Shown here one piece after another: positions 2,138 to 36,947 of a DNA stretch of 42,906 nucleotides; positions within the stretch are counted from its first letter, which is position 1; each line of letters opens with the position of its first letter. The notes under the pieces are model-generated. The model did not search any database, had not been told where the DNA came from, and saw nothing but the letters and a program-made list of their open reading frames with translations. The DNA comes from a virus. A program made the translations under genes and the position numbers. The stretch spans positions 1 through 42,906 of IMG/VR virus record IMGVR_UViG_3300035670_000455; one strand, 5' to 3'.

Positions 2138-2152
2138 TAATATTTTTAGAAA

Positions 2153-2185
2153 AGGGGGTAGAAAAATATATCTACCCTCTTTTTC
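2153..2185 (+). terminator. Intrinsic terminator
   Basis: A 10-bp stem (2153-2162 with 2171-2180, one G-U pair, core GGGTAGA/TCTACCC) and an 8-base loop are followed by a run of T to 2184. It closes the unit that ends at 2137 and abuts the next promoter element, which starts at 2186. Confidence 0.85.
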
Positions 2186-2194
2186 TGATATAAT
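2186..2194 (+). promoter_or_regulatory. Extended -10 promoter TGATATAAT
   Basis: TG-A-TATAAT lies one base after the terminator T-tract. A -35 would fall inside the hairpin, and none resembling TTGACA is present. It should start transcription near 2201, just before the ribosome site AGGAG of the gene at 2211. Confidence 0.65.
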
Positions 2195-2210
2195 AAAACA
2201 GGAGTAAATA

Positions 2211-2381
2211 ATGAGTAGAGCGAGAGATATAGCCAGCCTATTAAATACCGTTGCTACGGATACTGAGATTGCCAATAAAATTGATGGCGACGGTAGCATT
2301 ACAGATATTGTAGAAGTAACACAAGCAGAATATGATGCTCTTACTCCAGATTCAACTACCCTTTATGTTATTGTAGGTTAA
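2211..2381 (+). CDS. 56-aa fibre-anchor-like peptide
   Basis: ATG with an AGGAG ribosome site. The N-terminus SRARDIASLL resembles the common opening of phage tail fibres, and the C-terminus TQAEYDALTPDSTTLYVIV is a motif often found at the end of small fibre or neck-appendage proteins. Here both lie in a separate 56-aa reading frame rather than fused to a long fibre. The stop TAA (2379-2381) is one base before the next ATG, so translation is probably coupled to the receptor-binding module downstream. It could be a real small adaptor or the result of a fibre gene splitting. No frameshift that would join it to the next frame is obvious. Confidence 0.65.
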   Translation: MSRARDIASLLNTVATDTEIANKIDGDGSITDIVEVTQAEYDALTPDSTTLYVIVG

Positions 2382-2382
2382 T

Positions 2383-3018
2383 ATGGTAGCTTTAGGATCT
2401 ACCCTTATTGATACCGCCAAATTTGGATCAAATGATGTTACAGCATTCTATTTGGGTAGCAATGAAGCATGGACAGCAGGAGAACCTGCAGAGCTTATAA
2501 AGCCAACAAGTATTGCAAATAGTGGCGGTAGTGCAAGCATTGGAACAAATGGACAAGTTACCTTTAGCGGTGTTACAAGTGTGTCTCTTAATGGAGTATT
2601 CTCTGCTGACTTCGACAATTATGTGGTATCAGTCAGGGCGGTATTAGCATCGGGTGGTACTGGTTTGTCTATTCGTTATCGTGTTGCTGGATCAGATGCA
2701 TCTGGGGCCAACTACACTCGTCAAAATTTAGACGCAGGTGGTACGGCGGTTACTGCAAGTCGTAATTCTTCAGAGACTAGCACTCGTATTGGTTTTGTTT
2801 CTGCTACGCAACGTGACGGAACAAACGTTTATATTTATGGCCCTTATCTTGCTCAACCAACGGCAACTCGCTGTACTTCGGTATCGGGTTCATCATCAGC
2901 ATATCTTTATGACGTTGCAAGCACGCATTCGTTATCTACTTCATATGACGGCCTGACGGTGCTTACTAGTAGTAGTTCAATCACAGGTGCATTACAAGTA
3001 TATGGATTGAGGATGTAA
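2383..3018 (+). CDS. Receptor-binding/tail-fibre module 1
   Basis: A 211-aa beta-rich protein. A short N-terminal leader of about 35 residues (VTAFYLGSNEAW) precedes a domain shared with the next two genes. The common landmarks are KPTSIA, G-x-V-x-F-x-x-[VA]T, NGVF followed by D-NY, [IL]YGP-x-L-x-QPTA-x-R, [YF]DG[LF] and a closing TG-x-[LV]-x-V-[YF]G. The order and length suggest a globular, probably trimeric fibre tip; that is inference. No catalytic motif is seen. It overlaps the next gene by one base (TAATG), consistent with stoichiometric production. Confidence 0.7.
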   Translation: MVALGSTLIDTAKFGSNDVTAFYLGSNEAWTAGEPAELIKPTSIANSGGSASIGTNGQVTFSGVTSVSLNGVFSADFDNYVVSVRAVLASGGTGLSIRYRVAGSDASGANYTRQNLDAGGTAVTASRNSSETSTRIGFVSATQRDGTNVYIYGPYLAQPTATRCTSVSGSSSAYLYDVASTHSLSTSYDGLTVLTSSSSITGALQVYGLRM

Positions 3019-3572
3019 TGGCAAACACGGGTATGTTAGTATCAATGAAACCAACTTCTATTGCTTATTCTGGAACATCTGCATCTGTTAATAATAATGG
3101 TGGCGTGGATTTCACGGCTGTTACTGAAATAACTATAAATGGTGTATTCGCTACGGGCATAGATAATTATTTAATTGTGCTCAGTAATTGCACGGGAAGT
3201 ATTGACAATAAATCTGTGACAATTAGATTGACCTCCCTTGGATCTTTAGATACAGATGGTTCTTGGAACAGACAATTAATACAAGCAAATTCAACTACCA
3301 TTACTGCAAATAGAGCTACTGCTGTAAATACAGGAAACTTTGGAAATGTATCTACTTCAATATCAAGTGGGTTCATGTGCCATATTTATGGCCCTTACTT
3401 GGAGCAGCCTACAGCGTTACGTGTCACTTCTATTGCCCGTAATCCTGACGTTCTTACTGTTGATTTTGCGTGTACTCAAACAGAAAGTTCTGCCTTTGAT
3501 GGCTTTCGTCTTGCTGTAAGCCTTGGTGATACTTTCACTGGCAACGTTCATGTGTTTGGGTATAGGGAGTAA
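3018..3572 (+). CDS. Receptor-binding/tail-fibre module 2
   Basis: A 184-aa paralogue of the preceding and following genes. It lacks the N-terminal leader of module 1 and begins almost at the shared KPTSIAYSG block. It keeps NGVF, DNY, IYGPYLEQPTALR, FDGF and the terminal TGNVHVFGY, while the central region is strongly diverged. The conserved frame with variable middle fits a fold retained for trimerisation with altered ligand contacts. It starts by TAATG overlap with module 1 and is followed after three bases by module 3. Function in receptor recognition is inferred from location and family style. Confidence 0.7.
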   Translation: MANTGMLVSMKPTSIAYSGTSASVNNNGGVDFTAVTEITINGVFATGIDNYLIVLSNCTGSIDNKSVTIRLTSLGSLDTDGSWNRQLIQANSTTITANRATAVNTGNFGNVSTSISSGFMCHIYGPYLEQPTALRVTSIARNPDVLTVDFACTQTESSAFDGFRLAVSLGDTFTGNVHVFGYRE

Positions 3573-3575
3573 ATT

Positions 3576-4115
3576 ATGGCTATTCCAATGGGAGAATTAA
3601 TTATACCGTCGTCGGTTGCTGGTTCTGGTGTGTCGGTGTCTGCGTCGGGGAAGGTGACGTTCACGGCAGCGACAGAAATAAATGTCAATGGGGTATTCAG
3701 CAGCACCTATGACAACTATGTGATCGTGAGCCGCTACAAATACGGTGGAAACAATAATGCTTACATTCGGCTGCGCGGTTCTGGAACAGATGTTGTTACT
3801 GGATACGTGAATCAGTATGTGAACGCTGATGGGACGAGTGTTACTGGGGCGCGTCTATCTACTGGTGGTGGTGCTACTTATTGGTATGTGAACTATGGGG
3901 GAACAACTGAACAAGGCCGTCATTTCTACCTTTATGGCCCTGCCCTGTCACAACCAACAGCGTTCCGTTCTGTCGGTGTAAGTAGTTACAACACCGCACT
4001 CATTGAAGATTTCGCTAGTACGCAATCCACCTCATCGGGGTATGACGGTTTCACTTGGTATCACGCTAACTCAACAATGACAGGCTCCCTCACCGTGTAC
4101 GGACTCTCACAGTAA
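3576..4115 (+). CDS. Receptor-binding/tail-fibre module 3 (GC-rich)
   Basis: A 179-aa third copy of the same module: NGVFSSTYDNY, LYGPALSQPTAFR, YDGF and TGSLTVYGL are aligned with modules 1 and 2. From about 3605 the DNA becomes clearly more GC-rich than modules 1 and 2 and uses other synonymous codons; this continues to about 4165, past the stop. That suggests the module was recently swapped in from a phage of different composition, with the left junction near the shared N-terminal coding block. Probable role is host recognition at the tail tip. Confidence 0.7.
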   Translation: MAIPMGELIIPSSVAGSGVSVSASGKVTFTAATEINVNGVFSSTYDNYVIVSRYKYGGNNNAYIRLRGSGTDVVTGYVNQYVNADGTSVTGARLSTGGGATYWYVNYGGTTEQGRHFYLYGPALSQPTAFRSVGVSSYNTALIEDFASTQSTSSGYDGFTWYHANSTMTGSLTVYGLSQ

Positions 4116-4146
4116 AAGAATGATTATGGAACCGTGGACAATCACC

Positions 4147-4164
4147 ACCGTCTATCCCGACGGT
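4147..4164 (+). terminator. Hairpin after the fibre modules (possible weak terminator)
   Basis: ACCGTC (4147-4152) pairs with GACGGT (4159-4164) around a 6-base loop. Only an AT-rich stretch follows, not a clean T run, so termination is uncertain. Confidence 0.35.
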
Positions 4165-4178
4165 ATAAATTAATAATC

Positions 4179-4187
4179 TGATACAAT
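4179..4187 (+). promoter_or_regulatory. Extended -10 promoter variant TGATACAAT
   Basis: TG-A-TACAAT lies 26 bases before the holin-like gene and fits the recurrent promoter element of this genome. No -35 is evident. Confidence 0.5.
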
Positions 4188-4213
4188 ATTTCTCTATATA
4201 GAAAGGAAGACAT

Positions 4214-4432
4214 ATGTCTACACAAACAAAGGCTATGCTAAAGTCATGGTTTAATGTTTTTATTTCTGCACTCATTACCGCCGTTTTGGTAATTCTTACA
4301 TCAAATAATGGAACAATTCCTCTTGATGGAGAGCTATGGTTGGGTGCATTAATTTCAGCAGTTGTTGCTGTTTTGCCAGTTATCAAGAATTACTTTGATA
4401 CAAGTGATCCACGATATGGTCATATTGAGTAA
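4214..4432 (+). CDS. Putative holin (small two-TM membrane protein)
   Basis: A 72-aa protein with two hydrophobic segments, about residues 13-29 (VFISALITAVLVILTS) and 43-58 (WLGALISAVVAVLPVI), separated by a short polar turn. It ends in a charged, tyrosine-containing tail. Size, two TM segments and charged ends match small phage holins, which permeabilise the membrane at lysis. ATG is preceded by AAAGGAAG at good spacing. It has its own promoter-like element upstream and a strong terminator downstream. The candidate lysin is nearby but on the other strand. Another small membrane protein cannot be excluded. Confidence 0.6.
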   Translation: MSTQTKAMLKSWFNVFISALITAVLVILTSNNGTIPLDGELWLGALISAVVAVLPVIKNYFDTSDPRYGHIE

Positions 4433-4451
4433 TAATTAGTTTAAGAAATTT

Positions 4452-4480
4452 GGGGATAGTCTTGTGCTATCCCCTTTTTT
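4452..4480 (+). terminator. Intrinsic terminator
   Basis: GGGGATAG (4452-4459) pairs perfectly with CTATCCCC (4467-4474) around a 7-base loop, followed by six T. It closes the holin-like unit and abuts the next promoter element. Confidence 0.9.
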
Positions 4481-4482
4481 CT

Positions 4483-4491
4483 TGATATAAT
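4483..4491 (+). promoter_or_regulatory. Extended -10 promoter TGATATAAT
   Basis: It lies two bases after the T-tract of the preceding terminator and 22 bases before the glycosyltransferase start. The 3' arm of the hairpin occupies the place where a -35 would be. Confidence 0.65.
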
Positions 4492-4512
4492 TGAGCAAAT
4501 TATTGGAGAAAA

Positions 4513-5610
4513 ATGACAAATAAAAAACCAACTGTAACATTTTTAACTTTTGATTGGGCTTTTGGTACAAAACCATTAGAACCTAATGGATGTGCCTGGT
4601 ACAGGTGCTATCTTCCTATGAAGGAATTAGAAAAGCAAGGTTGGGAAACAGGTATTGGATTTCCAGGGTGGAATGAAGAGCATGGATTTGGAATGCTTAT
4701 ACCAGACAACAAAGCTATTCATGGTTGGGACATTATTGTATTTAAGCTTATTATGCTTGAGAGTGTATCAAGTAAGATAGATATAGCCCGTAAGATGGGT
4801 CAGAAGATTGTTGTTGATATTGATGACTGGTTTGAGGGATTAGAAAAATCTAATCTTGCTCATAAGATGACAGATCCTGAAATGAATCCAAAAAATAATC
4901 GTGAGCATTATATGAAAATTATTGATAGTGCTGATGCTATTATTACATCTACCCCATTTTTATATGATTTTTATACAAAGGAAAAGGGTAGAAAAAATGT
5001 TTACCTAGTTCGTAATGGTATAGATTATTCACGATGGATTCCAAGAAAGGATCATGCACGAGGTCTACCAAAGTTTGGTTGGGTAGGAGCAACACCATGG
5101 CGCTCTAACGATCTTGAACAACTAGTTCCATTCTTTGGACAGTTCTTAGAAAAAAATAGATTATCATTTCATCATTCTGGTCATATTAAAAATGCAAAAT
5201 ATGCTAAAGATCAATTGATGATTCCAAGTTCTGTCAAGACAACTGAACAACCTATGGAGCCTATTAGTAGATATCCAGAAATGTTTAGAAAAATAGATGT
5301 TGGCATTGTGCCGCTCAACGACGTTGGTTTCAATCATGCGAAGTCTGGAATCAAGGGGCTTGAGTATAGTGCTGCTGGAGTGCCTTGGATTGCCTCATAC
5401 AGCCCTGAGTACGCTCTACTAGAAGAGCAGGGTATTGGAAGAGTGGCAAGAAATGAACGGGAGTGGATGGGGCATATGGAAGAGCTTCTAGACCACAGAG
5501 TTCGTAAAGAAGATGTTGAAAGAAATCTTGAAGGAATAAAAAAATATCAGTCTATGGAAATTCGTGGATCTGATTGGAATGAAGTAATGCACGCAATTCG
5601 TGAACAATAG
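4513..5610 (+). CDS. Glycosyltransferase, GT-B fold (family 1/4-like)
   Basis: A 365-aa protein resembling retaining GT-B glycosyltransferases. The N-terminal half has Rossmann-like strands with VVDIDDWF at about residues 107-114, then an ADAIITSTPFL segment and VRNGID, typical of the inter-domain region of this superfamily. The C-terminal half has GWVGATPWRSNDL, then DVGIVPL and K-x-G-I-KGLEYSAAGVPWI, the usual donor-nucleotide-sugar binding region with its glutamate. It is flanked by its own promoter and terminators, so it is an independent unit. The start ATG follows TTGGAG. In phages such enzymes modify host surface glycans, virion proteins or DNA; the substrate cannot be read from the sequence. 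The part from about 5300 to 5500 is more GC-rich than the first half. Confidence 0.75.
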   Translation: MTNKKPTVTFLTFDWAFGTKPLEPNGCAWYRCYLPMKELEKQGWETGIGFPGWNEEHGFGMLIPDNKAIHGWDIIVFKLIMLESVSSKIDIARKMGQKIVVDIDDWFEGLEKSNLAHKMTDPEMNPKNNREHYMKIIDSADAIITSTPFLYDFYTKEKGRKNVYLVRNGIDYSRWIPRKDHARGLPKFGWVGATPWRSNDLEQLVPFFGQFLEKNRLSFHHSGHIKNAKYAKDQLMIPSSVKTTEQPMEPISRYPEMFRKIDVGIVPLNDVGFNHAKSGIKGLEYSAAGVPWIASYSPEYALLEEQGIGRVARNEREWMGHMEELLDHRVRKEDVERNLEGIKKYQSMEIRGSDWNEVMHAIREQ

Positions 5611-5615
5611 AAAGA

Positions 5616-5662
5616 CAGGGTAGGATTGTTGCCACCTGAATAATTAAGGTTTTCCTACCCTG
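5616..5662. terminator. Bidirectional hairpin between convergent genes
   Basis: CAGGGTAGGA (5616-5625) pairs with TCCTACCCTG (5653-5662) around a 27-base loop that itself contains ACCT/AGGT. It sits between the ends of the rightward glycosyltransferase and the leftward lysin gene. T-tracts are weak on both sides. Confidence 0.65.
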
Positions 5663-5671
5663 CCTAACTAA

Positions 5672-6199
5672 TTAATAGCAATTATGACCAGGATAAAACC
5701 AATGCTTGCTACCCTTGCCATTTTGCCAAGCGGTATAAAAAGCACGATCTTGATAATATCTTGACCACTTATGAATAGGCTTATCAAACAAAGTTCTAAT
5801 CTCTGCTGATAAACCATCTCCTACTTTCTTTGATTCTTTTAGCATCATCCAGACAAGACCATCTCTCCATTGAGAGTCTAAAAATTGATAGGCTCCCCTA
5901 GCAGAAGATGACTTATTAGCGGCACGGTAGGAAAAATGTGATTCTCTATTCATGATGCATTTTCGAGAATCTTCCCATTTTGCGTTGTACCACTTACCAC
6001 GATAAAGAGAAGGCTCAAAGCCTTTCATATCACTTGCCAAAGAAGACCTAGCAGATCTATGTTCTTGGCTGATGAATGCGACCGTGGCAGCCGCAGTTGG
6101 TGCAGACTTAGCATACACCGTATCAGAGGAAAATGCAGGGGAAGCAAAAGTAATTGACACTACCATTCCTACAATTCCTCCTATCAGTTTCGTTTTCAT
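5672..6199 (-). CDS. Secreted transglycosylase/lysozyme-like protein (candidate endolysin)
   Basis: A 175-aa protein with a clear Sec signal peptide: positive N-terminus MKTK, hydrophobic residues 5-19, and a probable cut near residue 24. After a linker, residues 78-175 form a small lysozyme-like domain. CIMNRESHFSY carries the likely catalytic Glu86, and GAYQF at 102-106 is the substrate-groove motif of Rpf/transglycosylase-type domains. Cys81 and Cys174 could form a disulphide, which fits an exported protein. Such enzymes cut the glycan strands of peptidoglycan. It is the first of three leftward genes and has the only textbook promoter seen here plus an AGGAGG ribosome site. It may be a Sec-exported endolysin working with the nearby holin-like protein, or a secreted wall-remodelling accessory. 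Confidence 0.75.
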   Translation of the reverse strand: MKTKLIGGIVGMVVSITFASPAFSSDTVYAKSAPTAAATVAFISQEHRSARSSLASDMKGFEPSLYRGKWYNAKWEDSRKCIMNRESHFSYRAANKSSSARGAYQFLDSQWRDGLVWMMLKESKKVGDGLSAEIRTLFDKPIHKWSRYYQDRAFYTAWQNGKGSKHWFYPGHNCY

Positions 6200-6229
6200 C
6201 TGTTTCCTCCTAGCGGCGGCAACTTATCT

Positions 6230-6259
6230 AGCATAACAGAGATAAACAGCTAATGTCAA
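6230..6259 (-). promoter_or_regulatory. Consensus-type promoter for the secreted lysozyme-like gene
   Basis: On the minus strand TTGACA (6259-6254) is followed after 18 bases by TATGCT (6235-6230), which is itself preceded by TGT, an extended -10. An AGGAGG site follows before the ATG at 6199. Unlike the other promoters in the window it has a full -35. Confidence 0.65.
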
Positions 6260-6327
6260 ATAAATGTAGTAGAAATGTCTTATTTGTGAATAAATATACA
6301 ATAAAAAAAAATATATATATTCTTATA

Positions 6328-6771
6328 TTAGTTCCAGCCCAAGTAATTAGAAGCCTTTTTAAACCAATCTTTTTCTTTATTTTCAATTCTTCCAAGAAGA
6401 GTGTTGCAACTCGAACATAGAATACCTCTTGGCTTACCAGTTAAATGATCGTGGTCGGCGTGCCAATCTCTTTTACCAGAAGGCGATGGACTATCTATGT
6501 TGCATATCGCACATCTGTAATTTTGTTTTTTTAGAGTAGCATTAAAAAGCTCTTCTGTCCAACCGTTTTTTCTTCTATTGTATTTTACCGCCCACCTAGT
6601 TCTTTTTTGATACTCTTTTTGATATTTATAATTATTTTTTTTAAAATAATCTTTTATATTCTTATAGTTTGTTTTTTTAGAATACTCTTTTTGATATTCA
6701 TTGTGACAATCTTTACAATAAGAAGAAGTACTATATCTTTCTTTTAATTTACATTTACAACAAACATTCAT
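6328..6771 (-). CDS. Endonuclease VII-like HNH nuclease
   Basis: A 147-aa protein of the recombination endonuclease VII/HNH (beta-beta-alpha metal) type. An N-terminal zinc ribbon (CCKC...CKDCH) is followed by a very Lys/Tyr-rich linker, then the nuclease core with CAIC, HADHDHLTGK (catalytic/metal His and Asp), RGILC and CN-x-LLG. The two CxxC pairs of the core bind structural zinc. Relatives resolve branched DNA during packaging or act as free-standing homing nucleases. The start is placed at the second of two in-frame ATGs: a -10 element ends directly at the first ATG (6777), so the transcript should begin at or near 6771. The DNA here is extremely AT-rich, even for this genome. Confidence 0.8.
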   Translation of the reverse strand: MNVCCKCKLKERYSTSSYCKDCHNEYQKEYSKKTNYKNIKDYFKKNNYKYQKEYQKRTRWAVKYNRRKNGWTEELFNATLKKQNYRCAICNIDSPSPSGKRDWHADHDHLTGKPRGILCSSCNTLLGRIENKEKDWFKKASNYLGWN

Positions 6772-6777
6772 ATACAT

Positions 6778-6786
6778 ATAATATCA
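6778..6786 (-). promoter_or_regulatory. Extended -10 TGATATTAT giving a leaderless mRNA
   Basis: On the minus strand TG-A-TATTAT runs from 6786 to 6778, and the ATG at 6771 begins six bases later. No ribosome site precedes that ATG. The predicted transcription start therefore coincides with the start codon. Confidence 0.5.
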
Positions 6787-6872
6787 TATTTCTATAGAAG
6801 ATAATATTCTATATATATATTTTTTTATTATTATATTTAATCTATTCCCGCCCTTACCACCCATCAATGCTA

Positions 6873-7100
6873 TCATCTATTTCTCTGGTTGTCAATAGCT
6901 TTTTTAATTTTTTCTATAACGTTTCTTCCTGGATAAATTCTTGCTTTAGAAGAAAGATCGTAGAAGTATACACGATCTAGTTCATCAAGTCTAGGTATAA
7001 CAATAGAATCATCATCAACACCAGATAACTTAAGTTTTTCTTCTTTGCCTTCGTTTACCAAATTGTTATAAGAGTGTACCTCTTGAATTGTTAGTTCCAT
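6873..7100 (-). CDS. Hypothetical protein, 75 aa
   Basis: I do not recognise the family. It is a charged, soluble-looking protein without TM segments or cysteines. It has a predicted helical N-terminus (LTIQEVHSYNNLVNEGKEE), a middle segment with DSIVIPRLDELDRVYFYDL, and a basic C-terminal helix. ATG has a good AAGGAG site six bases upstream. It is the divergent neighbour of the ribonucleotide reductase gene and shares a 67-bp intergenic region with it that holds two opposed -10 elements, so the two may be regulated against each other. A small regulatory or DNA-associated role is possible but unsupported by motifs. Confidence 0.65.
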   Translation of the reverse strand: MELTIQEVHSYNNLVNEGKEEKLKLSGVDDDSIVIPRLDELDRVYFYDLSSKARIYPGRNVIEKIKKAIDNQRNR

Positions 7101-7119
7101 TGCTTGCTCCTTAAAACTC

Positions 7120-7151
7120 TGTTAGAATATTACTTATCCATAATTCTATCA
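7120..7151. promoter_or_regulatory. Opposed extended -10 elements forming an inverted repeat
   Basis: On the plus strand TG-T-TAGAAT (7120-7128) points toward the reductase gene. On the minus strand TG-A-TAGAAT (7151-7143) points toward the 75-aa gene. The arms form an inverted repeat with one mismatch and a 14-base spacer. Predicted starts are at about 7135 (plus) and 7136 (minus), so the two polymerases would compete for the same DNA. Confidence 0.45.
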
Positions 7152-7167
7152 AAGGAAGTGTTTTTAA

Positions 7168-9123: not shown

Positions 9124-9128
9124 TCTCC

Positions 9129-9137
9129 TGATATAAT
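9129..9137 (+). promoter_or_regulatory. Extended -10 promoter TGATATAAT
   Basis: It lies six bases after the reductase stop and 15 bases before the next ATG, with AGGGA as ribosome site in between. No -35 is recognisable in the end of the reductase gene. Confidence 0.6.
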
Positions 9138-9152
9138 AAAATAGGGATAAAA

Positions 9153-12100
9153 ATGACTCAAAATATTTTCAATCTATACTCTGCTCAAGCATTCTCAGAG
9201 CATCCATTAGCACTATGGGGACTTGATGATGATTTTTCATATTTATCTCTAATATCTGCTAGCCCAATATACTCTTTAACAGATGCAGTCTCTGCTAGCG
9301 TAGCTAATCCACCAACAGAGAAGCCACAGGAAACAGTAGGAATATCTGATATCTTTATTGAGATAGATAGCTTTACTGGTTCTGGATCTGCTAGCATAAT
9401 TGAAACACAATCTTTTTCAGTTAGCGATACAGATTCTCAAAAGCCAACGGTAAATATAAATTCATTTATATATACATATGATACAAACATAACTAGTCTT
9501 CAAATTGGATTTAGATATGACGGAGATAATTATTACTCAACATATGAAAATCTTGATACAAATTCTTGGACAAGAATTCATCACACAATGGATCTTCCAG
9601 ACTCTGGTGATGTAACGCCATATATATCAATTATTCATCCAGATCCAGAAAAAACATATTCTTTGTATCAGTTGTCAGTAGGACAATGGTCAGAGCAATA
9701 TAACCATGAAACTCAGGGATCTGTAACCATACCATTTGAAAATATAAGTGCATCTGCATCACTTATGGGATCAGTAGCTGGTGCATTATCTGCATCACCA
9801 ACAATATTTGATGTTGTTGAAGTTGATGAGTACGGATTTTCAACGGCTAACTATGGATACTATTTTGTAGAAAACAATAGGATGTTATCTACAAATACTA
9901 AACTACCAATGGTATACGGGTCTGGAGACATAACAGAAGTATATGCATCAAGTAATTCTATTCCATCTATTGTTTTTCCTGGTAAAGGATTTTTACATAC
10001 TAATGGAAAGTTCAGCGATTTAACAGCAGAGTTCTGGTTAAAAATTTATCCAGACAACACTACAAAGAAAAGAATATTTGGCCCACTTGCCAGCGAAGAT
10101 GGTCTATATGTAGATAAAGATTTTATAACTCTAAGAATTGGTCCATATGAAAAGTCATATTTTATTAATAAATGGTATAGGCCAATGCTTGTCAGCATAA
10201 GATATAACCAATCTTTTGCTAGCGTAATGATAAATGGTGAACTAGTTATTGAGCAAAATCTTGTTCCAAGAGATGTTGATTTCCCAGAAAATATTACTTA
10301 CGATACAGACTGGGTAGGATTCTATAGCCATGATGATATTGTCAAATTTGAAGTAGACTGTTTAGCAATATATCCTTATATTGTTTCAGATCAGTCAGCA
10401 AAGAAGAAGTTTGTTTATGGTCAGGGTGTTGGTCAGGCACAAGAGATAACTAGAAAGTTTGGATCTACCTCTGTTCCAGTTGACTTCTCATTTGCTGGAT
10501 ATTCAAGTAATCTTATTTATCCAGACATGACTAACTGGTATGCAGGATTTTATTCAAATCTAGATCCAACTTCACAATATCTTAGCATTCCTAAATATCA
10601 ATTGCCAGAAATATCATATCTTGGAGATGATCTATCTGCATTTAATGTTGATAGAAGAAGAAAGACTTGGCGAAGTGTAGCTGCTAGAACTTGGTACATC
10701 TGGCTAAGTAGAATTTGGAGACAGATTTCCTCTTCTAGAGAAATTGAACCACTATTTGATAATTTTGACTCTCAAATAGATAGAACAGAAAACTTTTATT
10801 TTCAAACTAGACCAAACAGCGCATATAACAATGTTTATGGATCAATAGTATTTAATTCATTAAACATTCTTAATGAGCCAGCCAGATCAATCCTCGGAGT
10901 ATTTTCTATAAATCAATCTGAGATAGATGAAAAAGAGGCTGGTACAGAAATATCAATAATGCATTTTAAAAATTCTGCAACAGGAGATATTTTTAAAATA
11001 ATTTTTGATGATTCAGATAACAAAGTTAAATACATATATAATTCAACAACATTAAAAGAATTTGAAATTTTAATATCAGATGATGACACATTCTTTATTG
11101 CTGGCATAGACATAAATAATCTAACAGATTCATTTGCAAGGATCGTAAAAAGATTTTTTTCTATCCCTCAAAATATAAAATTTAATGTTGCTGGAAATGA
11201 GAATAATCAATTCCCAGGAAAAATTTATAGAATAAACATAAACAACTCATTCTTTACAAGAAAAGATATGGGAGACTACTTTGATTCACAGGGTTTTGCA
11301 TCATATAGTGATGAAGCAGAGATACTTGAGTCAAATAGCATACTTTCATATATAGCTAATTACACTCTTTTCTTTTCCAAGACAAATTCATCAATGATTA
11401 TGGATATTGCCTCAACAGGTTACTGGGAAGATAGTGTTCCTCTATCATATTTTGGATCATATATTTTGAACTCAAAGGGAGAAAGAACAGGCTACGATCT
11501 TGACTTCTTACAATTTAATATAGACTATCCAAGCTCCATTTACTCTAATGATAACTTTGATGATGATAGAAACGTAAAAATTTATGCAACGCTTCAGAAT
11601 TATGAAGATGCTGGAAAAATATCATATTCAAACTACACCATTACAAAAGGACTAGATGAGAATAGATATGTAGATTTTGAAAATATAGACTCAGACATTG
11701 ATGCAACAAAGTTTAATATTGTTGACGGTACAATAATATTTGCACCAAAATCAATAATTGACTTTAACAATGCATACCTAACAATTCATATGGAGATTAA
11801 AGATCCTGGAGTTGGGGCAAACCCAGTAAATATTCAAAGAATGGCACTTTCATCATTAGCATATGATCAAGGATCTCTATATCCATTGAATAGTGCTACT
11901 GGAAACAAGATATATCCATTTACAAGACAGGGTATATCCTACATAACAAAAGCAAAGAATCCATATCTATTTTATAAAGATGCCACACCATACCTTTACC
12001 TAACATCAGACTCTGGAGTTCAAGCACTACCATATCCAGACATAGAAGACACAGCTAGCGAAACATTTAGAAGAGGAATCTCTATACCACTCAATCAATC

Positions 12101-12623: not shown

Positions 12624-12625
12624 TA

Positions 12626-12634
12626 TGGTACAAT
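12626..12634 (+). promoter_or_regulatory. Extended -10 variant TGGTACAAT, leaderless start
   Basis: TG-G-TACAAT ends seven bases before the ATG at 12642. There is no ribosome site between them, so the predicted mRNA 5' end is at or next to the start codon. The element would open the head operon. Confidence 0.5.
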
Positions 12635-12641
12635 TAGTGTC

Positions 12642-14529: not shown

Positions 14530-14540
14530 ATATCAAAATA

Positions 14541-14570
14541 TGATAAAATACTAAAAACATACTATATAAT
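14541..14570 (+). promoter_or_regulatory. Two tandem -10 elements before the protease-scaffold gene
   Basis: TG-A-TAAAAT lies at 14541-14549 and a perfect TATAAT at 14565-14570. The second ends nine bases before ATG 14580, leaving only a very short leader with a poorly spaced AAAGGTG. Two alternative starts of transcription are possible. Confidence 0.45.
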
Positions 14571-14579
14571 AAAGGTGTC

Positions 14580-15953
14580 ATGACTGATTTTACAAAAGCA
14601 TATTGGGCTACCGATGGTGACTCCATCTCAGTTCGTATGCCAATCACAAAGGTAGACAAAGAGCGCAGAATTGTTTCTGGCTGGGCTACCACAGATGTTC
14701 TTGATAAGCAGGGAGATATTGTCTCCTCAGAAGCATCTGCCCGTGCATTTGAAAACTTTTTGGGAAATGTACGAGAACAACATACACCACTTGCTGTAGG
14801 AAAAGTTGTTTCATTTAAGCAAGATAAGTTCTTTGATAAGAATGAAAACAAATTTTACAACGGAATGTATGTAGATGTATATGTTTCTAAGGGTGCAGAA
14901 GATACTTGGCACAAAGTTAATGAGGGAATTCTAACTGGATTTTCTATTGGTGGAAGCATCAAGGATTCAGAAAATGTTTACAACAAGTCAATGGATCAAG
15001 AGATTCGGGTAATTAAAGAATATGATCTTCATGAACTTTCTCTTGTTGATAATCCAGCAAATCCAGCATCAACAATTGTATCTGTACAAAAGTTTGATAA
15101 CGTTGTACAAGATATTGAAAAGAATTATCTTGAAAATGTTTACTGGTGTTCAGATAGCGATGTAGTTATTCTAAGCGAAAAAGCAGATTATCCATGCCCC
15201 GATTGTAATAAGCACATGACTAATATTGGTTTTGTTGAAAGTAATGATGTTAATAAGTCAGATTCTGTTAAGAATCTTATTAACTCATTCACAAAGGCTT
15301 CAGATATAGAATCTGAAAACATGGCGATTGACGAAGAAGCCAAGTCAATTGCTGAAAATATTGAAAAGGAGGGAAATAAAGTGGGAATTCTAAACAAGAA
15401 GACCAAGGACGCAGAGATTGCAAAGTCTGAAGAAACAGTAGAAGATGCTGTAGAAACTACAGAAGAAGCTGTCGAAGAGGCAATTGAAAAGTCCGATGAG
15501 GTCGAAGAAGTAGAAGTAGCTGAAGATACAGCCGAAGTTGCTGAAGAAGCAACCGAAGAGGTTGTTGAAAAGGCTGATACAACTGAAGAAGTCATTGAGA
15601 CAGAAGAAGTTGTAGAGAAGTCCACAACTCCTGCAGAAGACAGCACAGATGACTTGGCAAAGGCTGTAAGCGAGATCAAGGATTCTGTTGCCGACGCAAT
15701 TGCAGATCTTGCTGCAGTAGTTAAGGGTATTGCTGATCAGGTGGCAGAAGTAAAGAAGTCACTTGATGGCGTTTCAGAGGAAGTAAACGTCGTAAAGGGC
15801 AATGTTGCAGAGTTTGGAGAGCGTATCGATGAGGTTGAAGCAGATACAGCTGTCCGTAAGTCTGGCGATCTTGGCGGGATCGTGCAGGAAAATAAAATAA
15901 GAAAGTCGATGTGGGGCGGTCGTTTCCTCAATTCCGCTGACCTATATCGGTAA
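14580..15953 (+). CDS. Prohead protease with C-terminal scaffold domain
   Basis: A 457-aa two-part protein. Residues 1-180 resemble the S78/XkdF-like prohead proteases: GWATTDVLDKQGDIV, His68 in REQHTPLAVG and Ser122 in TGFSIGG as likely catalytic residues, and ELSLVDNPANP. Residues 188-215 hold a possible zinc site (Cys190, Cys206, Cys209, His212). From about 265 on it is an acidic Glu/Val/Ala-rich region followed by a heptad-like helix (residues 370-440), typical of head scaffolds, and a basic C-terminal end with MWGGRF. The protease would cut the scaffold and capsid during head maturation. A strong internal ribosome site at 15366 suggests the scaffold part is also made alone. Confidence 0.85.
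   Translation: MTDFTKAYWATDGDSISVRMPITKVDKERRIVSGWATTDVLDKQGDIVSSEASARAFENFLGNVREQHTPLAVGKVVSFKQDKFFDKNENKFYNGMYVDVYVSKGAEDTWHKVNEGILTGFSIGGSIKDSENVYNKSMDQEIRVIKEYDLHELSLVDNPANPASTIVSVQKFDNVVQDIEKNYLENVYWCSDSDVVILSEKADYPCPDCNKHMTNIGFVESNDVNKSDSVKNLINSFTKASDIESENMAIDEEAKSIAENIEKEGNKVGILNKKTKDAEIAKSEETVEDAVETTEEAVEEAIEKSDEVEEVEVAEDTAEVAEEATEEVVEKADTTEEVIETEEVVEKSTTPAEDSTDDLAKAVSEIKDSVADAIADLAAVVKGIADQVAEVKKSLDGVSEEVNVVKGNVAEFGERIDEVEADTAVRKSGDLGGIVQENKIRKSMWGGRFLNSADLYR
15381..15953 (+). CDS. Nested in-frame scaffold protein (internal start of the protease gene)
   Basis: GTG at 15381 is codon 268 of the protease gene, in the same frame. AAGGAGGG (15366-15373) sits seven bases upstream, as good as the ribosome site of the major capsid gene. 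Starting there gives a 190-aa protein that consists of exactly the acidic, helical scaffold region and none of the protease. This is the arrangement of lambda C/Nu3, where the scaffold is made from an internal start within the protease gene. Using it would yield the excess of scaffold over protease that head assembly needs. It is inferred from sequence only; the AAGGAGG also encodes ordinary Glu-Lys-Glu-Gly residues. Confidence 0.6.
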   Translation: MGILNKKTKDAEIAKSEETVEDAVETTEEAVEEAIEKSDEVEEVEVAEDTAEVAEEATEEVVEKADTTEEVIETEEVVEKSTTPAEDSTDDLAKAVSEIKDSVADAIADLAAVVKGIADQVAEVKKSLDGVSEEVNVVKGNVAEFGERIDEVEADTAVRKSGDLGGIVQENKIRKSMWGGRFLNSADLYR

Positions 15954-15983
15954 ACATCGGTAAAAATACAGGAGGTGAAAAAT

Positions 15984-16985
15984 ATGTCAGAAGATATTCT
16001 AGAGAAGGCAGCAGCAACAGGCGCAGTAGTTTCTGGTGGAATTGGTGGTGTAACCAATCCATCAGCTGGTGATCTTGGTGTTGTTGGCAGCACAACCGAT
16101 GATGGCGGTATTCTCAATCCTGAGCAGTCTCGCCAATTCATCGAATACATTTGGGAACAGCAGGTACTAGCACAAGATGGTCGTAGAGTTACCATGCGTG
16201 CAAACACTGCAGAACTAGAAAAGCTTAACGTAGGTGAGCGTGTAATCCGTGCAGCAGCTCAGGCTGATGCAACTTATACAAACGCAGACGTAGCTTTCAC
16301 TAAGGTAGAAGTTACAACCAAGAAGATTCGTCTTGACTGGGAAGTTTCTACTGAAGCTCTTGAGGACAACATCGAAGGTGTAGGTCTTGAGGACCATTTG
16401 GTTCGCACCATGACACGCGCATTCGCTAATGACCTTGAGGATCTTGCTATCAATGGTACTGGTTCTGGTACGAACTCATTCCTAAGCATCCTTGAAGGAT
16501 TCCATGCCAAGGAGACTGGTGGTGGCAACGAAGCCACTACAGTAGCCTCCAGCGGCAGCACATGGACAGTTCAGGATCTACAGGACATTGTTCTAGCCAT
16601 GCCACGCAAGTACCGTGGTTCACGGTCTGCAATGAAGTTCTATGCTGGTTCACCAACTCTATCTTCACTTCTCAACAGCCTTGCAAACAGTGGTAACTTT
16701 AACAGTGAGCGCATCGTTGAGAGAATTGTTGATGGATCTGTACCACAGGTTGTTGGTGCTCCACTACAGTACCGCGTTCTCGGACTACCAATCGTTGAGG
16801 TTCCTTACCTCCCAGACGATTATGTCTCACTCACATTCCCAGAGAACAGAATTTGGGGATTCCAGAGAGATGTTACAGTCCACCGCGAGTTCAAGCCAAA
16901 GAAGGATACCGTAGAGTACACAGTATTCGTTCGCTTTGGTGTACAAATCGAAGAAACAGACGCAGTAGCCTACGGCGCTAAGTAA
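15984..16985 (+). CDS. Major capsid protein (HK97 fold)
   Basis: A 333-aa protein that forms the head shell. Typical elements are an N-arm rich in Gly/Ala/Asn, ILNPEQSRQFIEYIWEQ, the E-loop with VRRVT-like RRVTMRAN, the spine helix LEDHLVRTMTRAFANDLEDLAINGTG, the A-domain segment YRVLGLPIVEVPYLPDD and C-terminal strands EYTVFVRFGVQIE. ATG 15984 is preferred over the GTG at 15975 because AGGAGGTGA (15970-15978) overlaps that GTG and is correctly spaced for the ATG. The gene is markedly more GC-rich than its neighbours, as expected for codon selection in the most abundant virion protein. A strong terminator follows. Confidence 0.93.
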   Translation: MSEDILEKAAATGAVVSGGIGGVTNPSAGDLGVVGSTTDDGGILNPEQSRQFIEYIWEQQVLAQDGRRVTMRANTAELEKLNVGERVIRAAAQADATYTNADVAFTKVEVTTKKIRLDWEVSTEALEDNIEGVGLEDHLVRTMTRAFANDLEDLAINGTGSGTNSFLSILEGFHAKETGGGNEATTVASSGSTWTVQDLQDIVLAMPRKYRGSRSAMKFYAGSPTLSSLLNSLANSGNFNSERIVERIVDGSVPQVVGAPLQYRVLGLPIVEVPYLPDDYVSLTFPENRIWGFQRDVTVHREFKPKKDTVEYTVFVRFGVQIEETDAVAYGAK

Positions 16986-17002
16986 TTCTGTTTCAAAGCT
17001 AC

Positions 17003-17039
17003 GGAGGGAGGCCCACAAAGCCTCCCTCCAATGCTTTTT
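17003..17039 (+). terminator. Strong intrinsic terminator after the capsid gene
   Basis: GGAGGGAGGC (17003-17012) pairs perfectly with GCCTCCCTCC (17020-17029) around a 7-base loop. A T-rich end at 17035-17039 follows. Confidence 0.9.
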
Positions 17040-17043
17040 AAGA

Positions 17044-17052
17044 TGATATAAT
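17044..17052 (+). promoter_or_regulatory. Extended -10 promoter TGATATAAT
   Basis: It lies just after the terminator T-tract and 16 bases before the next ATG, with GGAG between them. This is another terminator-promoter pair. Confidence 0.65.
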
Positions 17053-17068
17053 TAACTTGGAGATAAAT

Positions 17069-17320
17069 ATGCCTGAAAATAAAACTACGCCAATAAAGAA
17101 AAAGGCACCAGAAAAAACTACTATTAATAAAAAGGTAGAACAAAAACAGCCAGATAAGGTTGCAATATTCTCATCTGGAAATTTGTTTCATCCTATACTA
17201 GGAAGAATTTCAAAGGGCTACTCTATTTTAGATTATTCTACTGCTCATGAATGGATGAAAATTTCAAATAAAATAAGGGAAGCTACTCCAGAAGAAGTCG
17301 CCGTAGCTTACGGTGTATAA
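17069..17320 (+). CDS. Small protein between capsid and connector genes, 83 aa
   Basis: Unknown family. The first 30 residues are highly Lys/Pro/Glu-rich and probably disordered. The rest, from VAIFSSGNLFHPILGRI, is compact and contains STAHEWMKI and PEEVAVAYGV. ATG 17069 is chosen over an in-frame TTG at 17057 because GGAG (17059-17062) serves the ATG. Its stop is directly followed by the next ATG. The place in the operon suggests a head decoration or head-tail joining accessory, but no motif shows this. Confidence 0.7.
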   Translation: MPENKTTPIKKKAPEKTTINKKVEQKQPDKVAIFSSGNLFHPILGRISKGYSILDYSTAHEWMKISNKIREATPEEVAVAYGV

Positions 17321-18187
17321 ATGGAAACATTAAGACTTCCAGAAACAACATCTATAGATGTTACATTTTCTGTTCCTGATGCACTAACAAATTATTCAAT
17401 GACATATGTTGATTTTAATACTGGAATATCAAGATCAGCATCTGCAACCTCAAATTCTTCAGAACTTGTTACATTCACACTTGATGATTACTACCTAACT
17501 TATACTGGAACAGTAAAGACAGATATTTATGATGGATCAACACTTGTTATTTCAACTGGAATTGATATTGTAAAGCCATATTGTGATATTACATCTGTTA
17601 AAAATAAACTTGGAATAACAACAGCTCAAACAATTCAGATTGAAAAGGTAGCAAGAAAAATAATAGAGTCAGAAGCAGGAACATTTAATTTTGTTCGTAA
17701 GCAAAAAGAAATTACTGGAATGGGACTTGACTATCTACCCGTTGATGAAAGAATTGTAAATCTATATTATATGTATGAAAATGGAGACTTAATCTATGAT
17801 TATGAAGATGAAAATCTCGATGATTATAGAATTAGCATAGATGGAACATCTATTGTTACATCAGTATCTCCAGTAAACAAGATGGAATACCAGAAGGTGT
17901 GGAGAGACAGATTTTTAGATACTGACTTTACTAGTGGATATGAATACTTGATAGATGGAGATTTTGGATATCAAGTAGTTCCAGAAGATATTCAAGAAGT
18001 ATGCGAACTTCTTATGCAAGATATTGCATCTAATAATATGAGATATATTAATCGTGGTATAGAAGAATTTGACAATAACGAATTTAAAATCAAATTTGCA
18101 AAAGGTTACACATCTGGTACAGGCAATATGATTGCCGATAAAATTCTAGCAAAGTATAAGAATAGAATTATTCCAGGGGTGATTTAA
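17321..18187 (+). CDS. Head-tail connector (adaptor) with N-terminal beta domain
   Basis: A 288-aa protein. Residues 1-88 look like a small beta-sandwich (SIDVTFSVPDALTNYSMTYV, TGTVKTDIYDGSTLV). Residues 90-280 resemble helical head-tail adaptors that bind under the portal: CDITSVKNKLG, EKVARKIIESEAG, a variable middle with RISIDGTSIV, then VPEDIQEVCELLMQDIASNN. The N-terminal domain is additional to the usual short adaptor. It starts directly after the preceding stop and abuts the next gene, fitting the neck operon. Confidence 0.7.
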   Translation: METLRLPETTSIDVTFSVPDALTNYSMTYVDFNTGISRSASATSNSSELVTFTLDDYYLTYTGTVKTDIYDGSTLVISTGIDIVKPYCDITSVKNKLGITTAQTIQIEKVARKIIESEAGTFNFVRKQKEITGMGLDYLPVDERIVNLYYMYENGDLIYDYEDENLDDYRISIDGTSIVTSVSPVNKMEYQKVWRDRFLDTDFTSGYEYLIDGDFGYQVVPEDIQEVCELLMQDIASNNMRYINRGIEEFDNNEFKIKFAKGYTSGTGNMIADKILAKYKNRIIPGVI

Positions 18188-18631
18188 ATGCTGCCAGTTG
18201 GCAACTTAAATAATTTATATTATCCAATGACTGCTGATATTTATTATGCATCCAGCACACAGAATGCCTTTGGTGAATATGCAAAATCTTGGACAAAAGA
18301 CAGAACAATAAATTGTTCTGCAATTAAAGAAAATCCAGCATCATCAATGAGAACTGCATTAACTGCTGAAAAATTTTTAGAATATGATGTAAAAATTAAT
18401 ATGCGTACAAATGAAAATATATTTAAAGCAATTGATGGAACACACTATAAGCCAACAGATATTTTAATTACAAATATCAAAGATCCTTTTAATTCAATAG
18501 CTTGGATGGAAAATGATGTTAATCCAACAAGCTTTGAAGTAGATATTGTTGAGCCAATGTTTGATGAGTTTCATGGGGTAGCTGGATACAGAGTATTATT
18601 ACGAAGATCAGATTTACAGGTTGATGTTTAA
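18188..18631 (+). CDS. Head-closure / neck protein
   Basis: A 147-aa protein, best explained as the head-closure (stopper-type) component. It sits second after the connector and is rich in beta structure, with DIYYASSTQNAFGEYAKSW at the N-terminus and YRVLLRRSDLQ near the end. The central part has YKPTDILITNI. The assignment relies mainly on synteny and size. It overlaps the following gene by one base. Confidence 0.6.
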   Translation: MLPVGNLNNLYYPMTADIYYASSTQNAFGEYAKSWTKDRTINCSAIKENPASSMRTALTAEKFLEYDVKINMRTNENIFKAIDGTHYKPTDILITNIKDPFNSIAWMENDVNPTSFEVDIVEPMFDEFHGVAGYRVLLRRSDLQVDV

Positions 18632-19317
18632 TGTATACAATAAAATTTGATGGAAAAGAAGCAATGAAAATGCTTAGTAATGTAGTTGCGTACTCTGATG
18701 GATTTATAAAAGAAACAAAAGCAAAGCAATCAACAGTTGCATCTAAGTTGGCAGATTCAAGTATTGATGCATTTTATGATTACCTTGACGGACTAGCAAG
18801 AACAAACCCTGGAATGCTACATCATGTATATGAGTGGGGTAATGTAGGAAATCCAGAGGCTCGTTTGGTAGAACTAACAAAAGCTCTTGGGAGAGGAAAT
18901 TCTGTAGCAATTGACTCTGAGTTTCTTACCTCATCATCAATTCCAAATGGTGGCTCAGAACCATTTTATGAAAAAGCGACAATCATGGAAGAGGGTATTC
19001 CAGTAACAGTTCAAGCAGTAAATGCCAAGGCCATGTTTTTTGAATGGAATGGAGAAGAATACTTCACTGCTGGACCAATTGTTATAGAAAATCCAGGAGG
19101 AGAAGCGGTAAGAGGATCTTTTGTTAGAGCGTTTGAAGAATTTTATAATATATATTTTAATCAAGTATATCTGAGAGCAATTAGATTTTATGATCATTTT
19201 TCTCAAACCAGAGAATATTCTAAAAACTTTCCTGCGGCAGTTAAGTCTGCAAATGCAGCAAACATAGGAAGAACAACTGCGCTAAAATGGATATTAACAA
19301 TGCCAGGTGATGAATAA
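18631..19317 (+). CDS. Neck protein (HK97 gp10-like tail-completion family)
   Basis: A 228-aa protein with an N-terminal helix (KFDGKEAMKMLSNVV), a long helical stretch with QSTVASKLADSSIDAFYDYLD, then beta segments with MFFEWNGEEYFTAGPIVIENP and a C-terminal helix. A similar helix-then-strand plan and position characterise HK97 gp10-like neck proteins, which join the head to the tail terminator. Overlaps by one base at its start and end show tight coupling. Confidence 0.55.
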   Translation: MYTIKFDGKEAMKMLSNVVAYSDGFIKETKAKQSTVASKLADSSIDAFYDYLDGLARTNPGMLHHVYEWGNVGNPEARLVELTKALGRGNSVAIDSEFLTSSSIPNGGSEPFYEKATIMEEGIPVTVQAVNAKAMFFEWNGEEYFTAGPIVIENPGGEAVRGSFVRAFEEFYNIYFNQVYLRAIRFYDHFSQTREYSKNFPAAVKSANAANIGRTTALKWILTMPGDE

Positions 19318-19808
19318 TGAGTAGATATCCAGAACTTATAATTAATAGCTATGTGTGGAAGCAATTTGAAACTGCTAAACCAGCAATATATTCTCAATAT
19401 ACAGGAAGTCCAATTATTCCAGTAAGAGATATGTCCTCTGAGTACCCATGGGGAACAAAGCCATATATTATTTATGATTCTTTTGCAAGACCACGATCAG
19501 CAAGAAAATATTTTTATCCAGTTAAATCAGCTCAACTTATGTATTCAATTAAGGGGTCTATATCTGAAATATACGAGTGGAGAGACTTTATTATAAATGT
19601 CTTGGATAGAGAAGATGATGCTGCCAAAGATATTAACGAGTATGCTGGAGAAAATCTTAATGGAGTACGATCATATTTTCACTGTATTAATGCCTATCAA
19701 ATGAATTATATTGGAAATACCACAGAACAAACAGGGCAAAGAAAACAATTTTCAACAAATCTTATTGTAAAATATGACTATCATATTTCAGATGTTTACA
19801 ATGCTTAA
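19317..19808 (+). CDS. Tail terminator protein
   Basis: A 163-aa protein immediately before the major tail protein, the canonical place of the tail terminator that caps the growing tail tube. An alpha/beta layout is seen: KPYIIYDSFARPR, QLMYSIKGSISEIYEWRDFIINVLDRED (helix) and a closing beta segment FSTNLIVKYDYHIS. The assignment is by position, length and secondary-structure pattern. Confidence 0.6.
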   Translation: MSRYPELIINSYVWKQFETAKPAIYSQYTGSPIIPVRDMSSEYPWGTKPYIIYDSFARPRSARKYFYPVKSAQLMYSIKGSISEIYEWRDFIINVLDREDDAAKDINEYAGENLNGVRSYFHCINAYQMNYIGNTTEQTGQRKQFSTNLIVKYDYHISDVYNA

Positions 19809-19814
19809 AATAGA

Positions 19815-19823
19815 TGATACAAT
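19815..19823 (+). promoter_or_regulatory. Extended -10 variant TGATACAAT before the major tail gene
   Basis: It lies seven bases after the tail-terminator stop and 57 bases before the major tail ATG. It would give the tail-tube gene its own promoter and a leader of about 50 bases carrying AAGGGGTGA as ribosome site. Confidence 0.5.
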
Positions 19824-19880
19824 TATCTTGAGGAAACGCCCCACGCCAAAAAATAAACAATATAAGGGGTGAAATTATAT

Positions 19881-20564
19881 ATGGCAACTCTTGGTGATTC
19901 AACACAGATTATTGTAGGTGCAGCTCAGCTCTTTGTTTCAAAGAGTGGTTCACTAAAGTACATTGATGGTACAGATCCAGCAGAGTATTCATTTGATGGT
20001 GCAGCAGGCGACGATATCCCAGATTTCGTTGCAGGCACAGAATATGCCGACACTCTAGCAGGTGCTTCAGCTTCTGCTAACTGGAGAAATGTCGGTTACA
20101 CAATGAATGGTCTTGAGGTTCAGTTCCAGCCAGACTTTGGTGAAGTTCAAGTAGATCAGCTACTTGACGTTGCTCGCCTCTACAAGCAAGGTATGCAGGT
20201 CAACATGGTAACAGCATTTGCAGAAGGTACACTAGAGAATCTAGTTGTAGCTATTGCTGCAAATGATGCAGACTATGACGACTCAGATGCTGATGAGCTA
20301 ACACTCAATATGGCATCTGGCAACCTTGGTGAAGTTCCAGTAGAACGTGCTCTTATCGCTATCGGCCCAGGCTCTGGTGATCCATCAGCAACTGGTGCAG
20401 ATAAGGTAGAGCGTGTCTACGTTGCTCACAGAGCACTTTCTATTGAAAGTGTAACTGCGTCTGCTAAGCGTGATGAAGCTACAATGTTTGAAGTTTCCTT
20501 CCGTTTGCTACCTGCTAACAATGGCTCCTATGGAAAGATCGTAGACCGCGTTGTAGGTTCCTAA
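19881..20564 (+). CDS. Major tail (tube) protein
   Basis: A 227-aa protein that builds the tail tube. It begins GDSTQIIVGAAQLFVSK, has NWRNVGYTMNGLEVQFQPD, then VDQLLDVARLYKQGMQVN and VERALIAIGPGSGD, and ends with a beta segment containing ATMFEVSFRLLP, the usual plan of siphovirus tube proteins. ATG 19881 is chosen over an in-frame GTG at 19869 because AAGGGGTGA covers the latter. The gene is more GC-rich than its neighbours, like the capsid gene, consistent with very high expression. Confidence 0.9.
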   Translation: MATLGDSTQIIVGAAQLFVSKSGSLKYIDGTDPAEYSFDGAAGDDIPDFVAGTEYADTLAGASASANWRNVGYTMNGLEVQFQPDFGEVQVDQLLDVARLYKQGMQVNMVTAFAEGTLENLVVAIAANDADYDDSDADELTLNMASGNLGEVPVERALIAIGPGSGDPSATGADKVERVYVAHRALSIESVTASAKRDEATMFEVSFRLLPANNGSYGKIVDRVVGS

Positions 20565-20590
20565 TAATTAAACAACAATTTAATAGCATT

Positions 20591-20620
20591 AGACCCCGCT
20601 CATAATCTGGGCGGGGTTTA
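20591..20620 (+). terminator. Intrinsic terminator after the major tail gene
   Basis: ACCCCGC (20593-20599) pairs with GCGGGGT (20611-20617), extended by weaker pairs, with an 11-base loop. The following T-tract is short (TTT), so read-through into the chaperone genes is likely. Confidence 0.7.
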
Positions 20621-20629
20621 GTGCATTTA

Positions 20630-20657
20630 TGGTAGAATTGGCCTGCTATGTTATAAT
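20630..20657 (+). promoter_or_regulatory. Two extended -10 elements before the tail chaperones
   Basis: TG-G-TAGAAT (20630-20638) and TG-T-TATAAT (20649-20657) follow the terminator. The second lies 24 bases before ATG 20682, which has AAAGGAGAG as ribosome site. Confidence 0.55.
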
Positions 20658-36941: not shown

Positions 36942-36947
36942 TATAAT
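36939..36947 (+). promoter_or_regulatory. Extended -10 TGATATAAT built on a stop codon
   Basis: The TGA at 36939-36941 ends the upstream gene and is also the TG-A of the element. The next ATG is 15 bases downstream with AAGGAG between. Confidence 0.6.

Follow-up and report, generated by a model that had tools for sequence, protein, structure and literature searches.

Predicted terminator-promoter junctions behind the major capsid and major tail protein genes of a probable actinobacteriophage and its relatives

Paired signals at four gene borders

The IMG/VR virus record IMGVR_UViG_3300035670_000455 was analysed over its full 42,906 bp, a stretch referred to below as the window. Nearly all of its long reading frames lie on the + strand, and its gene content includes a portal, a capsid maturation protease, a major capsid protein (MCP), a major tail protein (MTP) with an immunoglobulin (Ig) domain, a gene of tape-measure length, a DnaB-type helicase and a primase. 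At four gene borders in this region a stable hairpin is followed closely by an extended -10 promoter motif, TGNTATAAT or a close variant of it, then by a ribosome site and a start codon. An earlier note on this DNA had described a hairpin joined to a -10 element at these four sites, and the arrangement is as it was described. Site 3 follows the MCP gene and site 4 the MTP gene. Table 1 lists the features. Each hairpin was folded alone and compared with 200 shuffles; z scores ranged from -5.1 to -7.4, and none of the 200 shuffles folded as stably.

Table 1. Positions of the junction features, the genes upstream of sites 3 and 4, and further extended -10 elements in the window.
Feature	Position	Strand	Details
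Site 1 hairpin	2149..2184	+	14 bp, including A-U pairs with the T-tract; -18.7 kcal/mol, z -5.33
Site 1 extended -10, TGATATAAT	2186..2194	+	then AGGAG 2200-2204, ATG 2211
Site 2 hairpin	4452..4474	+	9 bp, then TTTTTT; -14.8 kcal/mol, z -5.15
Site 2 extended -10, TGATATAAT	4483..4491	+	before ATG 4513, glycosyltransferase-like gene
Extended -10 without hairpin, TGATATAAT	9129..9137	+	before gene at 9153
MCP gene, upstream of site 3	15975..16985	+	PHROG 1623/10; tblastn to annotated MCPs
Site 3 hairpin, after MCP	17003..17029	+	10 bp; -22.1 kcal/mol, z -5.08
Site 3 extended -10, TGATATAAT	17044..17052	+	then GGAG 17059-17062, ATG 17069
Probable MTP promoter, TGATACAAT	19815..19823	+	then conserved leader TGAGGAAACGCC
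MTP gene, Ig domain, upstream of site 4	19869..20564	+	PHROG 2175; annotated homologues in Streptomyces phages
Site 4 hairpin, after MTP	20586..20624	+	17 bp; -30.4 kcal/mol, z -7.35
Site 4 first extended -10-like element, TGGTAGAAT	20630..20638	+	
Site 4 second extended -10, TGTTATAAT	20649..20657	+	before ATG 20682, tail assembly chaperone position
Extended -10 without hairpin, TGATATAAT	36939..36947	+	before gene at 36963
Extended -10 without hairpin, TGATATAAT	37395..37403	+	before gene at 37414

The four sites differ in their tails. Those of sites 1 and 2 are textbook runs of TTTTT and TTTTTT directly after the hairpin. The site 3 T-tract, TTTTT at 17035-17039, is separated from its stem by AATGC and makes a poor canonical U-tract, and that of site 4 is short and mixed. 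The close spacing described between T-tract and TGATATAAT is borne out: the element begins 0-4 nucleotides (nt) past the T-rich tail at sites 1-3. Site 4 does carry two extended -10 elements, TGGTAGAAT and TGTTATAAT, and a tandem counterpart of the pair, TGATAAAAT/TGCTAAAAT, occurs in four related loci (L084-L087). The 3' arm of the hairpin had been placed where a -35 element would lie; this fits well at site 3, roughly at sites 1 and 2, and for the first -10 of site 4, but the second -10 of site 4 is too far away.

Conservation and separability of the junction

We fetched 80 related loci using the MCP as bait and a further 80 using the MTP. Loci collected in this way speak to conservation; specificity is judged solely from a survey of 12 long records, below. 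Related loci share descent, so counts among them are not independent trials, and distinct stem sequences and cultured relatives serve as the guard. Conservation of pairing was accordingly judged by the number of distinct, fully pairing stems, a covariation alignment of five hand-picked MTP hairpins having proved too poor to use.

Among distinct relatives, a hairpin follows the MCP gene in 66 of 66 loci, and a hairpin with a -10 element in 53 of 66. The corresponding figures behind the MTP gene are 52 of 52 and 51 of 52. The pairing in relatives, whose absence the earlier note had named beforehand as refuting its proposal, is therefore present at both gene ends. The usual order 3' of the MCP stop codon is hairpin, T-rich tail, TGNTATAAT, a ribosome site or nothing, and a start codon. 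The gap between hairpin and TG is narrow at the MCP end (median 12 nt) and falls into two groups, 1-8 and 12-27 nt, at the MTP end. With 48 distinct 5' stem sequences at the MCP end and 38 at the MTP end, 86 different stems in all keep their pairing. Because the letters change while the pairing stays, the arrangement is under selection, as had been suggested from the differing hairpins and repeated architecture in the window.

Cultured Streptomyces phages share the arrangement. At the MCP end, Annadreamy and Muntaha have a hairpin plus TGNTATAAT, and Evy and Weasels2 a hairpin plus a variant extended -10, TGCTACAAT or TGGTAAAAT. At the MTP end, Evy and Coruscant have a hairpin plus TGNTATAAT, and Muntaha a hairpin plus a variant extended -10. 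The junction is missing at more distant MCP relatives in metagenome-assembled genomes (MAGs) of Archaeoglobales and in a Mycobacterium MAG. The gene downstream of site 2 has homologues preceded by a hairpin plus TGCTATAAT in the two closest relatives (L237, L238), and by a hairpin plus a variant -10, TGATACAAT or TGGTAGAAT, in L250, L252 and L254-L256; several other relatives have no hairpin there, and some of those have a TTGACC-17-TATAAT promoter instead. Homologues of the gene neighbouring site 1 occur in other contexts, so that relatives offer no comparison for that site.

The survey of 12 long records took in the ends of 658 reading frames with a length of 100 codons or more, the frames being called by simple rules. 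A strong hairpin was found at 61 of these ends and the full junction at 27, against a chance expectation of about 0.7 (61 hairpins, each with a 1.2% chance of a -10 element in 45 nt). Twenty-two of the 27 junctions are MCP or MTP ends, distributed over 11 of the 12 records. The twelfth record, G009, belongs to a clade in which the two halves of the MCP junction have been separated.

In this clade (L052, L054, L057, L060, L061, L063, L065-L067, L070, L072), the MCP hairpin and the promoter are separated by a small gene, whose product of roughly 80-100 residues starts MSYPG-. The hairpin stays 3' of the MCP gene and TGGTATAAT/TGATATAAT stays before the same downstream gene, with roughly 300 nt between the two signals. 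The small protein begins MSYPGxP..., followed by a HNHNGEGAIVTLG-like stretch; it may be a fibre or head decoration protein made in an amount that read-through determines. That hairpin and promoter can come apart argues against a mobile cassette, as do the location of the copies at orthologous MCP and MTP gene ends and the differing stems. The earlier suggestion that the module spread as a cassette is accordingly rejected; the orthologous positions point to vertical inheritance.

Extended -10 elements as predicted promoters

The motif TGNTATAAT occurs seven times in the window, compared with 4.24 +/- 2.05 times in shuffled versions, 13 of 100 of which reach seven. Its frequency alone is within the range of chance, and we rejected it as evidence. 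Placement is a different matter. All seven copies are on the coding strand and each has a start codon 10-24 nt downstream; four of the seven are preceded by a hairpin. Over 84 sequences (1.02 Mb of overlapping loci picked around the MCP, hence a screen and not a census), 203 copies lie on the coding strand and 11 on the opposite strand; those with a hairpin number 86 and 0, respectively, while permuted control motifs in the same sequences yield 0-1 with a hairpin. The coding-strand bias holds for 25 of 26 long records, the exception being G024 (10 and 12 sites), and in the cultured relatives (28 to 1). An unbiased count of 6-mers upstream of start codons ranks TATAAT first, with 146 occurrences against 20 expected.

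Distances from the -10 element to the start codon, measured in 12 records (n=128), show one peak at 6-9 nt (44 sites, mostly with no Shine-Dalgarno sequence) and another at 14-18 nt (32 sites, usually with one). The ATG peak without a Shine-Dalgarno sequence sits 6-7 nt after the -10 hexamer. Were transcription to start 6-7 nt past the hexamer, the two peaks would represent leaderless mRNAs and mRNAs led by a Shine-Dalgarno sequence. Leaderless mRNAs are common in Actinobacteria, and leaderless genes are predicted to be common in the long related records. In such records, among them L169, L176, L188, L189, L193 and L200, many extended -10 sites are followed after 6-7 nt by an ATG that lacks a Shine-Dalgarno sequence. 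The four junctions of the window itself include no leaderless one.

The 104 distinct extended -10 sites of the TGN class showed no -35 signal. The mean -35 match, out of six positions, is 2.59 for sites without a hairpin and 2.33 for sites with one, compared with a null value of 2.53. Since extended -10 elements with no hairpin lack a -35 equally, the idea that the hairpin substitutes for a -35 was discarded. TATAAT promoters without TG in the same genomes have a perfect TTGACA in 5 of 107 cases. Two putative promoter classes are thus present, TGN without a -35 and TATAAT without TGN, and hairpins lie beside 21 of 108 sites of the TG class versus 4 of 111 of the non-TG class. Such a preference would be expected if only a promoter that needs no -35 can pack against a hairpin. 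As judged from sequence, the extended -10 is a general -35-less promoter class and not a by-product of hairpins. Four independent lines, namely the distance peaks, the 6-mer enrichment, the strand bias and the existence of a class without a -35, indicate that the motif is probably a real promoter.

A phage-encoded reader was also sought. No match to the sigma-70 region 2 domain was found in 16 records, in a search whose control was detected, and a phage sigma factor was therefore rejected as the reader. The same 16 records gave no match to a T7-like polymerase (PF00940), a weak negative, as no control genome was detected and the window is a fragment.

The probable MTP promoter precedes a conserved 5' leader. 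In the window (19815-19881) and in loci L084-L161 and L208-L211 the order is -10 element, 5-7 nt, TGAGGAAACGCC, an AT-rich stretch, RAGAGGTGAAA and a start codon, the ATG of the MTP gene probably lying at about 19881. The leader motif is located near the predicted transcription start and reads GAGGAAGTGCC in Streptomyces phages; almost every one of the 12 long records has it at the MTP gene. Rfam gave no match for this leader, or for anything else in the window; it is a candidate leader RNA element or operator. In most relatives the reverse complement of the motif (window 19829-19840), CGTTTCCTCA, lies within the final codons (GRFL) of the protease gene, at 15918-15936 in the window, and one clade alters both the motif and its complement (CGTTTCCTAA / TTAGGAAACG). 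The prediction that the two covary failed, the match being broken in L064/L069 (CGTATCC) and in L033, and the complementarity may be a coincidence with a conserved peptide.

A predicted late-transcription plan and its alternatives

By protein comparison, the closest cultured phages are large ones of Streptomyces and Rhodococcus, with 44% identity in the protease and about 38% in the MCP; several of them are classed as Stanwilliamsviridae. WhiB-type regulators are known from Actinomycetota and their phages. Nine of 26 related records have one, as do all four cultured phages searched, with the control detected only in Corynebacterium. A locus in an Actinomycetota MAG (L213) encodes an MCP relative (57%) and carries the same junction. 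Because of the cultured relatives, the WhiB-type regulators and this MAG, the host is probably an actinobacterium. The window has a GC content of about 37%, except for its first 2 kb at 54%, where the gene at 101-1834 matches PHROG 2295 (function unknown). A recombination endonuclease VII-type gene lies on the - strand at 6328-6777, amid a region otherwise on the + strand.

We propose that each site marks where one transcription unit ends and another begins within a late region read in one direction. The GC-rich hairpin with its T-rich tail would be an intrinsic terminator, probably leaky and so an attenuator, located 3' of a highly expressed gene; the genes terminated would be those for the MCP (site 3) and the MTP (site 4) and two smaller genes (sites 1 and 2). 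The -35-less extended -10 motif, probably read by RNA polymerase carrying the host's main sigma factor, sigma-A, would act independently and start transcription of the next gene anew, 0-25 bp past the terminator. The two signals can abut because such a promoter needs no -35, whose region the hairpin DNA occupies. Coat and tail mRNA would thereby be uncoupled from the minor genes downstream, coat and tail-tube mRNA greatly exceeding that of head-tail connector or tail-chaperone genes, with those genes kept. We assign this reading a probability of roughly three in four.

Several observations weigh against it. Tails after the stems average 4.7-4.8 T in 8 in relatives, and, given that T content and the detached tract at site 3, termination may be weak. 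In the clade with the inserted gene, that gene starts about 20-30 nt past the hairpin and its ribosome site lies about 10-20 nt past it, with no promoter of its own seen. It would have to be reached by read-through, in which case the MCP hairpin is not a full stop there. This clade is the best evidence that the MCP hairpin probably attenuates rather than stops transcription. The identities of the host and of the RNA polymerase, moreover, are inferred.

The same features could be explained by a hairpin that serves mainly to stabilise or process the 3' ends of the MCP and MTP mRNAs, read-through transcripts being cut or trimmed as far as the hairpin, while the next gene simply has an ordinary promoter nearby. 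Imperfect U-tracts and the detached one at site 3 would suit such a role, as would the clade in which a gene with no promoter of its own seen follows right behind the hairpin. Most tails are nevertheless T-rich, those of sites 1 and 2 canonically so, and nearly all loci keep a promoter right behind the hairpin, which fits upstream transcription ending or declining there. We regard this explanation as unlikely.

In another alternative, the polymerase would release its RNA at the T-tract, stay on the DNA and re-initiate at the adjacent extended -10, the close packing itself being selected. Single-molecule work with E. coli polymerase (PMC6978380) shows that, once it has terminated at an intrinsic terminator, RNA polymerase frequently remains bound to the DNA and is able to start again from promoters close by. 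The likeness is a terminator and then a nearby promoter on the same strand, and the narrow gap at the MCP end agrees with it; but the published case is an in vitro phenomenon and not a genomic element. If such a relay operated here, the -35-less promoter would enable tight coupling, and polymerases would be passed from one short unit to the next, a set share being lost each time. The two groups of MTP gaps show no fixed geometry, however, and a separation of roughly 300 nt in the inserted-gene clade argues against one. A diffusing polymerase would need no abutment, and genome compaction alone would pack both signals together. We consider a relay quite improbable. Chance, in the form of TATAAT-like words arising beside hairpins in AT-rich intergenic DNA, agrees with the lack of enrichment of TGNTATAAT in the window but is refuted by the strand and hairpin counts with their controls, by conservation at distinct loci and in cultured phages whose MCPs are only about 38% identical, and by the excess of junctions in the 12-record survey, and its probability is negligible.

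Attenuation followed by an independent extended -10 promoter has parts that are each already known, MCP terminators from T7-like phages and extended -10 phage promoters from P23-45. T7 and Pseudomonas phage LUZ100 have a terminator behind the MCP gene, the arrangement in LUZ100 being described as similar to that of T7 (PMC10134795), and one is likewise predicted right after the MCP gene here. In T7 and LUZ100 the MCP gene has its own promoter for the phage RNA polymerase, whereas no TATAAT-like element positioned as a promoter was seen just 5' of the MCP gene in the loci we checked. Here the hairpin also abuts a promoter, the MTP gene shares the arrangement, and neither a sigma factor nor, in a search with no working control, a T7-like polymerase was found. 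Thermus phage P23-45 similarly uses -35-independent extended -10 promoters, in its case for middle and late genes that the host's sigma-A RNA polymerase transcribes (review PMC7403470). There a phage protein, gp39, displaces sigma region 4, and a pairing with terminators is not part of that description. Displacers of sigma region 4 resembling gp39 are small and poorly conserved. The late unit of mycobacteriophages L5 and D29, genes 1-32, likewise belongs to actinobacteriophages and has a hairpin terminator, a single one in the gap between genes 32 and 33, but no terminator-promoter junctions are described after the MCP or MTP genes (PMC5712189). In the open-access papers searched we found no description of a family-conserved terminator-promoter pairing at both gene ends.

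The clade with the inserted gene constitutes a natural experiment on hairpin leakiness, and the spacing from -10 element to ATG offers a means to spot leaderless phage genes. Cultured, annotated Stanwilliamsviridae of Streptomyces make the plan testable without a new isolate. If correct, it would account for how very different amounts of coat and tail proteins versus minor proteins could come from a one-directional late region, and it would give a large, mostly uncultured phage group a plan of late transcription in which RNA ends are predicted at specific bases.

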